Of a DNA stretch of 47,843 nucleotides, positions 2,851 to 47,843 are shown piece after piece. The position numbers were made by a program, and so were the translations under genes. The notes below the pieces were generated by a model. That model was not told the origin of the DNA. It searched no databases and was given only the letters and a program-made list of their open reading frames with translations. How positions within the stretch are numbered: the stretch's first letter is position 1; each line of letters opens with the position of its first letter. This stretch comes from an uncultured Verrucomicrobiota bacterium (GTDB lineage: Bacteria > Verrucomicrobiota > Verrucomicrobiia > Limisphaerales > UBA9464), in assembly GCA_903880005.1 (NCBI GenBank), contig CAIRNV010000451.1:1-47843 (forward strand), given 5' to 3'.

Positions 2851-3582
2851 ATGGTGACCTTCGAGCTGCCGGCCACGACCCCGCCCATGGAATGCCTGGC
2901 GTGGGACGAGGCCTTGCTGGACGCCGTCGAGGAGGAGGCGTGCGAGGCGGCGCTGTGGTTTTGGGAGTCGCCGATTCCCTGCGTGGTGGTGGGCTACGGG
3001 CAAACGCCCGAGCGCGAGGTCCACATGGAGGCGTGTCGCGCGGACGACGTCCCGGTCCTTCGACGTTGCAGCGGCGGGGGAACGGTGGTGCAGGGACCCG
3101 GTTGCCTGTCCTACGCGCTGGCGCTCCCGATCGACTCGGCCCCCGCGCTGGCGACCGTGAGCGGCACGAACGCCCATGTCATGGCCCGGCAACGCGACGC
3201 CCTAGCCCGGATCGTCGAGGGAACGGTGGTCGTGCGCGGCCACACAGACTTGGTTTGGAACGGGCGCAAGGTCTCGGGCAACGCCCAGAGAAGGAAGCGA
3301 CGGGCGCTGCTGTTCCACGGCACGTTTCTGCACGGGTTCGATCTCGCGAGGGTCACGCGTTGGCTTCGGGCACCATCCTCCGAGCCCGCCTACCGCGAGG
3401 GACGGGCCCATGAGGCCTTCATCAGCAACGTCCCCTGCCCTGCCCGGCTCATCTGCAAGGCCTTGGCGGACGAATGGCAAGCAATGCCCGCAGCCGTGCC
3501 AAGGGACGCTTCCATCCGCGTGAAGCACCTGCTGGAGGAACGCTACGCCCGTGCCGAATGGCATGCGCGCCGGGCGTCCTGA
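2851..3582 (+). CDS. Lipoate-protein ligase A-like protein (BPL/LplA fold)
   Basis: This 243-aa protein belongs to the biotin/lipoate ligase-octanoyltransferase superfamily, whose members attach lipoate or octanoate to a lysine of E2 or GcvH domains. Visible motifs are the nucleotide/lipoyl loop RRCSGGGTVVQGPGCLSYAL (residues 71-90) and the segment DLVWNGRKVSGNAQRRKR (133-150), whose Lys140 matches the family's invariant lysine. ALLFHGTFLHG follows. It starts at ATG 2851 after a weak ribosome binding site. GcvT, a glycine-cleavage enzyme whose partner GcvH is lipoylated, is encoded 13 kb away, so the link is only suggestive. It could be a true ligase or an octanoyltransferase (LipM-like); the length fits LipM-like single-domain forms. 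Confidence 0.82.
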   Translation: MVTFELPATTPPMECLAWDEALLDAVEEEACEAALWFWESPIPCVVVGYGQTPEREVHMEACRADDVPVLRRCSGGGTVVQGPGCLSYALALPIDSAPALATVSGTNAHVMARQRDALARIVEGTVVVRGHTDLVWNGRKVSGNAQRRKRRALLFHGTFLHGFDLARVTRWLRAPSSEPAYREGRAHEAFISNVPCPARLICKALADEWQAMPAAVPRDASIRVKHLLEERYARAEWHARRAS

Positions 3583-3670
3583 AGGGAGCCACCACGTTCC
3601 CAGGCCTCGTTTCGTCGCCGCATCGTACGAAAGGCGGCGGGAGCAGGGGAAACGGACGAACGGCCAAGTG

Positions 3671-3735
3671 AAAGTGGAAGCGGCTTCCAGCCGCTTGGCC
3701 AGAATGGATTAGCGGCAAGATGCCGCTGCCACTTT
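3671..3735. repeat. Family C palindromic element
   Basis: This is a nested inverted repeat. The outer arms AAAGTGGAAGCGGC and GCCGCTGCCACTTT enclose two smaller hairpins, AAGCGGCTTCCAGCCGCTT and AGCGGCAAGATGCCGCT. It lies 88 bp downstream of the lipoate-ligase-like gene and resembles intergenic repeats I recall from other Verrucomicrobiota. Only one copy was found here. A role as a 3' hairpin or a small non-autonomous element is possible. Confidence 0.75.
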
Positions 3736-3824
3736 GCAACCGGCGCGCAGACGCGCGGGGCAGTCGCGTGGACCTTTTGTTGAATTCTCATGGCCCACCC
3801 GCTCCTAGAATGTGCCGATGACGT

Positions 3825-4199
3825 CGAAGAACCCATTTCCCTCGCCGACAAAGCCTTTTTCCCCGCTAGAGACGCTCGTTCCTCGGGAAAAAATGCACTT
3901 TCCAGGCTGGAAGTTGGCTTTTGGGCCTAAAAAAAGAGTTCTTGAGCCGAAGAAGCGGGTTCCCGCCGGGAAAAAGTGGCTGTTCCGCGCCGGAAGACCG
4001 CAGTTCCAGGGAAAAGGGGCGTTTTTCGGCGCGATCAGCCTCCTCGGATCGCAAGAGGGAGGTTTTTTCGCGATGGGGAGACCCTTTTTCGCGTGGAAGG
4101 AGGGGTTTCTCGCGTGAAGGGAGGGTTTTTTGGCGTGGAAAGACGTTTCCAAGCTGAAACCGGACGTTTCCGGGCTCAAATGAGCCTCGAAACGGCCGC
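3825..4199. repeat. Degenerate tandem array with 21-bp period (about 18 units)
   Basis: The tract divides cleanly into 21-bp units starting at 3825, 3846, 3867, 3888, 3909, 3930, 3951, 3972, 3993, 4014 and 4035. The 4035 unit is 18 bp, and the phase resumes at 4053, 4074, 4095, 4116, 4137, 4158 and 4179. Units are highly diverged but share a pattern: a purine-rich half (GGAAGGGAGGG or GAAGA...) followed by a TTTTTCGCG-like half. Several frames stay open on both strands because the period is a multiple of three. This gives lysine/phenylalanine-rich heptads such as PKKRVLE and PKKRVPA, but no frame looks like a normal gene. I therefore treat it as non-coding. With the flanking elements it accounts for the 730-bp gene-free stretch 3583-4313. 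Confidence 0.8.
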
Positions 4200-4251
4200 C
4201 GGTCGTAAAACGTCCGATCTTTTCGGCAGATTTCGGGGTTCGGACTGGCAC

Positions 4252-4286
4252 AACGCCGCCGAGGTCGGGGAGACCTCGGCGGCGTT
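4252..4286 (-). terminator. Strong hairpin downstream of pilC
   Basis: A perfect 15-bp stem, AACGCCGCCGAGGTC paired with GACCTCGGCGGCGTT around a 5-nt loop, lies 27 bp past the pilC stop on the minus strand. No T-tract follows on that strand, so it may be a factor-dependent terminator or an RNA-stabilising 3' hairpin rather than a classical intrinsic terminator. Confidence 0.6.
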
Positions 4287-4313: not shown

Positions 4314-5648
4314 TTATTCTCCGCCGCCGCCATCGCTGCCCAGCTTGTCGATGAGCGTGATGAGCGGGAGGAAGAGCGCGATGACGATCGAGCCCACGAT
4401 GACGGCGAGGAACACGATCATGATGGGCTCGAGGAGGGATGTCATGGCGGACACGGCATTGTCCACCTCCTCGTCGTAGTTGTCGGCGATCTTCAGCAAC
4501 ATCTCGGGCAACGCGCCGGTCTGTTCGCCGACGTCCACCATGGAGATGACCATGGGGGGGAAGACGGACGATTTCTCGAGGGGTGCGGTGATGGTTTCGC
4601 CCTCCTTGACGGAGTCGTACACGGCGGACACGGCGCGGGCGACGACGAGGTTGCCGGCGGTTTCACGGACGATGGTCAAGGCCTGGAGAATGGGAACGCC
4701 CGATTGGACGAGCGTGCCGAGGGTTCGGGTGAACCGTGCGATGGCGACCTTGGAGATGACGGAGCCGAGGACGGGGAACTTGAGCTTCACCTGGTCCCAT
4801 ACGTAGGCGCCCTTCTTGGTCTTGAGGGCGATCTTGAAGGCGATGACGAAGGCGACGAGGCCCCAGATGACGGGGCCGGGCAAGGGGATGCCGCCGGCCC
4901 ACTCGGGGAAGATGATCGTGTAGTTCTTGAGCGCGTCCGAGATGTTGAGGACGAACATCGTGAACCCGGGCATGCCGGCGTCACCGCCCAGCAGGTCCGC
5001 GAAGATGGACTTGAACTTGGGGACGACGACGATCATCAGCAGCGCCAGGATCGCGACGGCAACGACCATGACGGCGGCTGGATAGAACATGGCGGCGACG
5101 ACCTTGCCCTTGATCTTCTCGGCCTTCTCCATGAACTCGGCGAGGCGCTTGAGGACGACCTCGAGCACGCCGCCGATTTCACCGGCCTTGACCATGTTCA
5201 CGAAGAGCTTGTTGAAGACCTTTGGGTGCTGGGCCAAGCCCTCGGAGAAGGTGGAGCCGCCCTCGATGGACTCGGCGAGCTCGCCGAGGATGCGCTTGAG
5301 GGTGGGGTGTCGCTCCTGCTTGCTGAGGACGCGAAGCCCGCGCAGCAAGGGGAGGCCGGCCTCGACGAGCGTCGCCAACTGGCGGGTGAACGTCGTCAGG
5401 ATCTTGGGCTTCACGCCCCCGCCGATGTTGATGTTCATCCCGCCGCCCTTGCCCTTGGCCTTGGCCTTGGCCTTGGCCTTCGCGGCGGCTTGAGCGGCAT
5501 CCTTGGGCTTGTCCGCCTCCACCACCTTGGTGGGGTGGAAGCCCATCTCGCGCAGGCGGTTGATGGCCTCGGACTGGCTGGCGACCTCGAGCACGCCCTT
5601 GGTCTCCTTGCCACGCGTATCCATGGCCTCGTAGTTGAACTTCGGCAT
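4314..5648 (-). CDS. pilC: Type IV pilus / type II secretion inner-membrane platform protein (PilC/GspF family)
   Basis: This polytopic inner-membrane platform protein couples the PilB/PilT ATPases to pilin assembly and disassembly. The 444-aa protein has the N-terminal MPKFNYEAMDTRGKETKG typical of PilC/GspF, then an Ala-Lys-rich linker (about residues 50-70, AKAKAKAKAKGKGGG). Two GspF repeats follow, beginning near FTRQLATLVEAGLPLLRGL (about 86) and IARFTRTLGTLVQSGVPIL (about 290). Each ends in a membrane segment (AAVMVVAVAILALLMIVVV and IMIVFLAVIVGSIVIALFL). An additional hydrophobic segment, VIWGLVAFVIAFKIAL, lies between. It is the last gene of the minus-strand pilus operon, 32 bp after pilB, with a strong hairpin downstream. 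The Ala-Lys linker is longer than in well-studied PilC proteins. Confidence 0.95.
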   Translation of the reverse strand: MPKFNYEAMDTRGKETKGVLEVASQSEAINRLREMGFHPTKVVEADKPKDAAQAAAKAKAKAKAKGKGGGMNINIGGGVKPKILTTFTRQLATLVEAGLPLLRGLRVLSKQERHPTLKRILGELAESIEGGSTFSEGLAQHPKVFNKLFVNMVKAGEIGGVLEVVLKRLAEFMEKAEKIKGKVVAAMFYPAAVMVVAVAILALLMIVVVPKFKSIFADLLGGDAGMPGFTMFVLNISDALKNYTIIFPEWAGGIPLPGPVIWGLVAFVIAFKIALKTKKGAYVWDQVKLKFPVLGSVISKVAIARFTRTLGTLVQSGVPILQALTIVRETAGNLVVARAVSAVYDSVKEGETITAPLEKSSVFPPMVISMVDVGEQTGALPEMLLKIADNYDEEVDNAVSAMTSLLEPIMIVFLAVIVGSIVIALFLPLITLIDKLGSDGGGGE

Positions 5649-10462: not shown

Positions 10463-10626
10463 CCGGGACGATTCGGTTGGGAGGGAAATGATTGCGAAGC
10501 AGATGCTTCCGCAGGCCGAGGAGCGAGCGAGGCGCGGGCCGGCACGAGGCCCGTCACGAGCGAACGACGAAGGATTTGCGCAAGCAGATCCAGCAAGCAC
10601 GACCGACCCAACGGAATCGTTCCGGC
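10463..10626 (+). repeat. Family A palindromic element, copy 2
   Basis: This is a near-complete ~164-bp copy. The left arm CCGGGACGATTCGGTTGGG and right arm CCCAACGGAATCGTTCCGG bracket the shared interior (GAAGCAGATGCTTCCGCAGG, CGGGCC/GGCCCG core, TTTGCGCAAGCAGATCCAGC). It lies in the 378-bp gap between the pilB-like start (10324) and the symporter stop (10703), 76 bp beyond the symporter stop. The rest of that gap shows nothing recognisable beyond probable promoter DNA for the pilus operon. Confidence 0.88.
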
Positions 10627-41743: not shown

Positions 41744-42447
41744 CCCAGGCCTTCTGCGATGCCGCCTTGCGGCTGCCGCACGTCGTGGCCATCGACGGCC
41801 CCAGTGCCTCCGGGAAGGGAACCCTGGCCCGGCGCCTCGCAGCGGACTTCGGCTGCACCTACGTGGATAGCGGGGCCATGTACCGAACCCTTGCGTGGTG
41901 GACGTTGCAAAGCGGGCTGAGGTGCGAGAAGCCCATGAGGCCCTCGGAAGAGGACGCCATCGTGCGGCTCATGCGTCGTTGGGACGCGCGGCTGCGAGTG
42001 ATCGACGGTGCCGCATGGTTCACCGTCGCCGGCTACTTCCCGCGCGAGGAAATCCGATCAGACCGCGTCGAGAGGGCCGTGCCGGTGGTCGCGCAGATCA
42101 CCCGAATCCGCGTCTGGATGGTCGCTCGCCAGCGTGACTGCGCACAGTTTGGCCCGCTGGTCATGGAGGGCCGAGACATCGGGACCGAGGTCTTTCCCTT
42201 GGCGCAGGTGAAGTTCTTCCTCGAGGCCGATGCCGCGGTGCGAGAGCAACGCCTTGCGCAGCGCGGCAATGCGGGCAGCGCGGGGTCCGGGCGGGACGCC
42301 ATGGACGCCACGCGACGCAAGGGAGCCTTGTACCCCGCATTGGACGCCATCCGCATCGACAACACCCACCAAACCCCGGATGAAACCTATGAGATCATGC
42401 GTTCCCACATGGGCAGACTTCGCGTCGCCGGCGCTTGGCCAGCCTAA
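41740..42447 (+). CDS. cmk: Cytidylate kinase
   Basis: Cmk phosphorylates CMP and dCMP. The 235-aa protein has the P-loop VVAIDGPSASGKGTLARRLA, YVDSGAMYRTLAWWTL, the CMP-site region FGPLVMEGRDIGTEVFPLAQ with KFFLEADAAVREQRLAQRG, and IRIDNTHQTPDETYEIM at the end. It overlaps aroA by 4 bp, the widespread tyrA/aroA-cmk arrangement. Its TAA stop is directly followed by GCC of a family A arm. Confidence 0.95.
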   Translation: MTQAFCDAALRLPHVVAIDGPSASGKGTLARRLAADFGCTYVDSGAMYRTLAWWTLQSGLRCEKPMRPSEEDAIVRLMRRWDARLRVIDGAAWFTVAGYFPREEIRSDRVERAVPVVAQITRIRVWMVARQRDCAQFGPLVMEGRDIGTEVFPLAQVKFFLEADAAVREQRLAQRGNAGSAGSGRDAMDATRRKGALYPALDAIRIDNTHQTPDETYEIMRSHMGRLRVAGAWPA

Positions 42448-42612
42448 GCCGGAACGATGCAGTTGGATCGGTCGTGCTTGCTGGATCTTCCTTCGCAAGA
42501 GCTTCGTCCTTCGCTCGTTACGGGCCTCGTACCGGCCCGCGCCTCGCTCACTCCTCGTCTTGCGAAAGAATCTGCGGCGCAATCACTTCCCTCCCAACTG
42601 CATCGTTCCGGC
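42447..42612 (-). repeat. Family A palindromic element, copy 6 (inverted interior)
   Basis: The copy begins in the cmk stop codon with AGCCGGAACGATGCAGTTGG and ends CCAACTGCATCGTTCCGGCC. Its interior is in reverse orientation relative to copies 3-5. Both arms carry GATGCAG/CTGCATC where copy 5 has GATTCAG/CTGAATC, a paired change that keeps the arms complementary. Confidence 0.92.
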
Positions 42613-45269: not shown

Positions 45270-45372
45270 CGTTCACACCTTGCCCCCGTCGCTCACCCCG
45301 GATCAACGACGGGACCGGGACATCGCCGCCGACCCCGCTGTCGGCACAAACAATCCTTCATGATCCGCACTT

Positions 45373-45539
45373 AGCCGGAACGATGCAGTTGGGAGGGAAG
45401 TGATTGCGCCGCAGATTCTTTCGCAAGCCGAGGAGTGAGCGAGGCGCGGGCCAGTTCCAGGCCCGTAACGAGCGAACGACGAAGAATCTGCGCAAGCAGA
45501 TCGAGCAAGCACGACCGACCCAACTGAATCGTTATGGCT
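45373..45539 (+). repeat. Family A palindromic element, copy 7
   Basis: The left arm AGCCGGAACGATGCAGTTGG and right arm CCAACTGAATCGTTATGGCT differ at one pairing position and at the outer TTATGG. The interior has a GATTCTTTCGCAAGCC variant shared in part with copy 6. It lies in a 575-bp stretch without a confirmed gene, preceded by TT so that TTAGCC again appears at its edge. Confidence 0.9.
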
Positions 45540-47329: not shown

Positions 47330-47640
47330 GTCGTTGCGCGCGCAGTACCCTCGCACGCGGCCGGACGCTTAGAACCCGTCAGGATTGGGTCAAGGAAGCG
47401 GCCGTAGAAATACTGGTGCATTTCTCTGAACACGCTCGCGCGCGCCACACGGAAACGAAGGTTCCCATGTCGTGGATCCGGCCGGGCCAGTGCCGCCTCA
47501 CCGGCAGGGTGAGACCCCTAATTCACCCCAAACGGGCCTATCTGCCCCGATGTGATGCCCCTTTCCTTGCCTTGGAATCTCCTTCAACCACCGTGTTTAC
47601 GATTTCAGTGAACGAAGCCATCCCGCGCAGAGGTCGCGGT
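47330..47640. other. Region upstream of the AAA ATPase gene
   Basis: A 311-bp non-coding stretch, locally less GC-rich (for example TGTGTTTACGATTTCAGTGA near 47590), likely holds the promoter of the minus-strand ATPase gene. I see no tRNA or recognisable operator. A minus-strand frame from the tandem repeat runs in to 47538. Confidence 0.5.
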
Positions 47641-47843
47641 ACGTCGTGTAAGGCCATCGGAACGTCGCGCAAGGCCATCGGAACGTCGCGCAAGGCCATC
47701 GGAACGTCGTGCAAGACCATCGGAACGTCGTGCAAGACCATCGGAACGTCGCGCAAGACTATCGGAACGTCGCGCAAGACTATCGGAACGTCGCGCAAGA
47801 CCATCGGAACGTCGCGCAAGGCCATCGGAACGTCGCGCAAGGC
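47641..47843. repeat. 21-bp tandem repeat, at least 9.7 copies, running off the window
   Basis: The unit ACGTCGCGCAAGGCCATCGGA repeats every 21 bp from 47641 to the end of the window. Differences are confined to a few positions (GCGC/GTGC/GTGT, GGCC/GACC/GACT). All frames stay open. The minus strand would encode the heptad LRDVPMV repeated, the plus strand GTSRKAI. Coding status cannot be settled because the tract is cut. Confidence 0.92.

Follow-up and report, generated by a model that had tools for sequence, protein, structure and literature searches.

Positions 3825 to 4199 of the DNA analysed here hold a non-coding array of units that are each two helical turns long, and this tract has the strongest helical A/T signal in the sampled part of its genome bin. 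That is the best-supported description of it. The window, meaning the whole stretch of 47,843 nucleotides that was analysed, belongs to a metagenome bin of 5.02 Mb in 492 contigs. The explanation favoured here is that the array is an architectural segment of DNA, curved and phased to the helix, which lies between convergent genes and arose when a unit of two turns was duplicated in tandem. We would give this explanation an even chance of being right.

The tract sits in a gap of 731 bases that runs from stop to stop of two convergent genes. The features involved are:
3825 to 4199, no strand assigned: degenerate array of about 17-18 units, found by autocorrelation, spectrum and grid fit, and an A/T outlier in the genome sample; array boundaries in this analysis were drawn by eye.
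3836 to 4171, plus strand: 16 T-runs on a 20.64-bp grid, from spectrum and grid fit.
2851 to 3582, plus strand: left neighbour, a lipoyl/biotin protein ligase-like gene (Pfam LplA-B_cat, E 9.8e-33).
4314 to 5648, minus strand: right neighbour, convergent, a PilC-like type II secretion F-domain gene (Pfam T2SSF, E 2.3e-67).
4252 to 4286, no strand assigned: perfect 15-bp inverted repeat whose loop has 5 bases; it separates the array from the T2SSF gene end, and its stem is terminator-like, without a T-run.
3662 to 3760, plus strand: dispersed REP-like repeat that precedes the array by 65 bp; its inverted arms, imperfect and 25 bp long, lie at 3671-3695 and 3711-3735.

The units follow a layout of roughly GGAAA-N(5-7)-TTTCC-N(4). 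At a lag of 21, self-identity of the tract reaches 0.472, where shuffles average 0.253 (z 9.1), and it is high at lags 41-42 and 62-63 as well. Not one of 1000 dinucleotide shuffles matches the lag-21 value at any lag from 1 to 70. A preliminary description of this DNA had proposed a degenerate array here and had named an autocorrelation peak at 21 as the check; both are borne out. The autocorrelation analysis finds the units to be without a conserved repeat, such as a CRISPR array, with its cas genes, would have between unique spacers. Tandem Repeats Finder reports just 2.7 units (4085-4140), which means that the array as a whole is too diverged for standard repeat tools.

The mean period is somewhat shorter than 21 bp. 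Computed over all four bases, the spectrum has its maximum at 20.75 bp when the tract is taken whole and at 20.6 bp in either half; a harmonic lies at 10.35 bp. A line through the centres of the 16 T-runs has a slope of 20.64 ± 0.04 bp over 330 bp, and the residuals have a standard deviation of 0.86 bp and a maximum of 1.4 bp. There are 17 grid positions, of which one, near 4045, lacks its T-run; this is in fair agreement with the 'about 18 units' counted earlier. The 21-bp period given there holds as a strong lag-21 signal, but not as a mean, which is ~20.6-20.75 bp. The phase had been called almost unbroken, with one slip of 3 bp at 4035. The grid does span the whole tract, but from one unit to the next the spacing varies between 19 and 22.5 bp and is not strict. 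With both halves in phase on the 20.64-bp grid, the slip is unneeded.

The A-runs are offset from the T-runs by 10.44 bp, which is half a period. A-runs and T-runs therefore alternate about every 10.3 bp, giving one A/T tract per helical turn. Each unit had been expected to show the same face of the helix, and with both kinds of run on the helical repeat this is so. In a scan of ~644 kb of the array's own bin (330-base segments, 10.0-11.2 bp per turn), the helical A/T signal of the tract is 32.5, and that of the next best stretch 12.7. The harmonic, the offset and this outlying position in the genome sample all show that the A/T runs keep step with the turns of the helix.

The predicted curvature of the array depends on the model chosen. 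With wedge angles of the kind derived from gel experiments, a 16-step model predicts a curvature of 1.14, against 0.43 for column-permuted arrays of the same period (z 6.4), and a model with a wedge at AA only also puts the array above column-permuted controls (z 8.0). Across 30 arrays of the class described below, the 16-step model gives p<0.05 in 18. Roll, tilt and twist values from protein-DNA crystals predict an array no more bent than its permuted units (z -0.1), and class means of only 0.5 and 0.3. The bending prediction that had been proposed as a check thus favours curvature under the wedge models, but not under the crystal-derived values.

Curved DNA of intergenic regions was reportedly treated by Kozobay-Avraham et al. 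in 2006. According to a passage of PMC4132750, short A/T runs phased at ~10.5 bp can yield persistent curvature, and periods of ~10 bp tend toward intergenic regions, which matches reports on promoter and termination regions. Passages of PMC4132750 and PMC4060949 describe curved DNA with phased A-tracts or AT-tracts in intergenic regions. The array resembles phased A-tract DNA in having short A/T runs once per helical turn, an intergenic position and, under the wedge models, predicted curvature. It is unlike it in that some 17 diverged tandem units, in which A- and T-runs alternate, provide the phasing, in that the surroundings are 62-70% GC, and in that other arrays with a similar period are found in the order.

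On the favoured explanation, a unit two helical turns long (~20.6-21 bp) would have been duplicated in tandem, repeatedly, to give the array. The units would then have diverged, while A-runs and T-runs went on alternating at each turn of the helix. The small bends would sum in one plane, and this would give intrinsic curvature. Between convergent genes, the result would most likely be an architectural site that favours a bend or a loop. The array may also seat a nucleoid-associated protein, and the positive supercoils from two converging polymerases could find room in it. A phase of 10.3 bp per turn, slightly under 10.5, would suit overwound DNA. Should spacing alone be kept under sequence drift, the array would lend itself to testing whether function can be encoded in helical phase and DNA shape. 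This would also account for repeat finders missing such arrays, as in the 2.7 units reported here, and the arrays provide a searchable, order-wide set for studying supercoil handling between converging genes.

A class of such arrays exists in the order. A scan of lags 6 to 100 at z > 6.5 over 573 kb of the own bin, a non-random sample in which some contigs weakly match the array, gave nine periodic matches. Seven of the nine have a lag of 21 (four matches), 42 (two) or 84 (one), and nearly all of those at the longer lags show 21 as a sub-lag too. The remaining pair consists of a weak, codon-like 63 inside pilC and one match at 18. A pattern of three TTTCC words spaced at period 21 matches in 38 of 196 genomes from the order, with 16 multi-match loci in 10 genomes; a multi-match locus is one with consecutive matches, counted by hand from listings. 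At period 24 there are likewise 38 genomes with a match and 2 such loci, and at period 22 there are 14 genomes and 1 locus. Outside the order the pattern matches in 27 of 115 genomes (114 further genomes plus the array's own), with four multi-match loci by hand count, three of which are 7-mer runs. With a viral origin in mind, a degenerate pattern was also matched to 3 viral contigs. A search of related genomes for similar arrays, as the preliminary description had suggested, therefore does find period-21 arrays in the order, and period 21 is favoured there over 22 and 24. The helical signal is less widespread: many other arrays of the class peak at 7 or 21 bp and not at 10.5 bp, and universal phasing of this kind was rejected.

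A literature search on 21-bp intergenic tandem repeats, or on those of Verrucomicrobia or Pedosphaera, found nothing on such arrays. Intergenic tandem repeats in Planctomycetota are mentioned in a passage of PMC9426551, and tandem repeats in Methylacidiphilum in a passage of PMC4210602.

Some arrays stand out individually. The window holds a second one, cut off by the contig end (47637-47843), which is a nearly perfect 21-bp array of ~9.8 copies with 95% matches and a unit unlike that of the first. In another genome, L211:10151-10480 is a 63-bp array (3x21) with hairpins in which, by eye, stem changes are paired. L215:12865-13261 is a 41-bp tandem array, or about four helical turns, in a genome that also has 21-bp arrays.

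The chief rival explanation is a neutral minisatellite. Slippage or unequal exchange would then proceed in steps that are a multiple of two turns, point mutations would account for the decay, and the phasing would come from the founder unit. We regard this as a serious possibility, though less likely than the favoured explanation. The tract has the periodic self-similarity above shuffles that marks a tandem repeat. As with bacterial minisatellites and variable-number tandem repeats, the arrays are intergenic and run head to tail, and clean ones (47637-47843 and L186) coexist with a decayed one (L037) in one bin. By eye, some arrays of the bin have unit families in common. The dispersal of one such family also fits neutral origin. 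So does the mixed gene context of 30 arrays: 8 convergent, 9 divergent, 6 tandem and 7 unknown, as judged by a crude ORF caller that mislabels the array studied here. Unlike in minisatellites, period 21 and its multiples dominate, and units diverge strongly within and between arrays. Against neutral decay, 20 of the 30 arrays are without an indel at 30-50% unit divergence under a 21-column cyclic profile, a stiff model that also missed the ±1 spacings of the array at 3825-4199. The A/T phasing of that array, an outlier in the genome sample, is a further argument against it.

Two results on the array itself speak for the neutral explanation. The grid residuals are not tighter than those of permuted gaps (P 0.30), and relatives are without the array. 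It is absent at each pilC locus of eight same-genus genomes, where a search with the region gives the pilC end as its main match and mostly the REP-like repeat among the further matches listed. At 80 pilC loci there is essentially no array and there are weak signals only, some of them codon-like. The closest named pilC relatives among these 80 listed loci come from Verrucomicrobia MAGs, Pedosphaera and Limisphaerales being among the names, and identity is at most 81%; the host would accordingly belong to Limisphaerales, or Verrucomicrobia subdivision 3. The array is therefore young, or quickly lost at this locus. Its absence in relatives argues for fast turnover, and it keeps the neutral reading alive. 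At this locus, the proposed look at related genomes thus gave a negative answer for the eight. The preliminary description had reasoned that strict spacing in diverged sequence suggests selection. The spacing is kept and the sequence has diverged, and selection on spacing is plausible, though neither the permuted gaps nor the relatives lend it support. A tie between the array and the pilus gene was considered and rejected on the eight genomes and 80 loci.

It is also conceivable, though unlikely, that the units are dyad binding sites for a dimeric DNA-binding protein. Two-turn spacing would put all such sites on one face of the helix. The units of the array are dyad-like (p 0.005). The same holds at p<0.05 in 13 of 20 arrays chosen for TTTCC or CCTTT at period 21, and in 3 of 10 taken without regard to the pattern, although three of those ten come from genomes picked for pattern matches. 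However, the units differ so greatly, both within one array and from array to array, that no one motif for a specific protein can be made out.

BIME/REP elements are also dyad-like and extragenic, occur several times per genome and have alternating REP units. The arrays share the first three properties, but lack a recurring conserved palindrome, and consist of ~21-bp head-to-tail units with no alternating REP units. With 3800-4230 as the query, the own bin gave just the locus itself and 15 weak matches (E 0.29 or more), so no conserved palindromic unit with many dispersed copies was found there.

A non-coding RNA, with a transcript folded as a long hairpin, is very improbable. The folding is real: the plus strand of the array folds better than shuffles (z -3.2, or -5.1 under other limits), and 21 of 30 arrays reach z <= -3 on at least one strand. 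This follows from units that are dyad-like, or quasi-palindromic. The partners in the long hairpin are paired no better than other units (p<0.05 in 5 of 30 arrays, p 0.76 here), and the arms within units covary at p<0.05 in 1 of 13 tests (p 0.69 and 0.15 for the two halves of this array). Every overlap with Rfam is far below gathering scores. The hairpin was rejected because the pairing and covariation tests failed.

The unit had also been read as seven codons, with frames that yield Lys/Phe-rich heptads. Open frames are indeed present, and the ATG at 3820 opens a heptad-like reading. A codon model trained on six genes of the window, both flanking genes included, scores the four array ORFs at -0.15 to -0.42 per codon, and the flanking genes at +0.23 and +0.69. 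Third-position GC is 0.49-0.65 in the array ORFs versus 0.84-0.93 in the flanking genes. No Pfam family matches the array ORFs at its cut-off, and no frame thus emerges as a conserved protein. As the period is not 21.0, the unit is not seven codons; seven-codon units would drift by ~6 bp over the tract. With negative codon scores, no Pfam family and a period of 20.64, coding was rejected. Ten ORFs that span other arrays gave a sole Pfam match, PP2C, at the end of a contig-edge ORF and away from the array. The 30 arrays have 238 stop codons where 390 are expected, owing to a general deficit of TA steps; among 45 permuted triplet sets the stop set ranks 17th in avoidance, which is nothing special. 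A small heptad-repeat protein, for example from the ATG at 3820 to a stop at 4117 on the plus strand or from 4299 to 3805 on the minus strand, is hardly credible given these scores, a plus frame that ends inside the array, and indels across the class that are mostly of single bases.

A wider version of the architectural explanation concerns Limisphaerales, or Verrucomicrobia subdivision 3, as a whole. These may have a class of fast-diverging non-coding arrays whose sole conserved property is the two-turn unit, and which would act as architectural elements read by shape and phase and not by sequence. They might, for instance, be sites of supercoiling or looping to which a nucleoid protein peculiar to the lineage binds. 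We consider this doubtful, although not far-fetched.

The window has dispersed repeats as well. The REP-like repeat at 3662-3760 is provisionally regarded as an element separate from the array. Tens of its copies are listed in the own bin and one same-genus genome. Of 20 loci around this repeat, one has a period-21 array and two have period 81. A second dispersed intergenic repeat, of ~170 bp, is found at 1-112, 10468-10626, 42446-42612 and 45370-45539, and is very common in the bin. Twenty loci were inspected for it, 19 around its copies and 1 around an array copy. One has an array, of period 63, and this locus also holds a copy of the L186-type array. A link between the array and the ~170-bp repeat was rejected on this count and because the repeat is common all over the bin.

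Finally, the bin contains a second pilC locus. Its first 1650 bases look identical to those of another same-genus genome, in a comparison of L238 (G000:C305) and L230 (G216:C327). Given this likeness, the contigs of the bin may come from two species.
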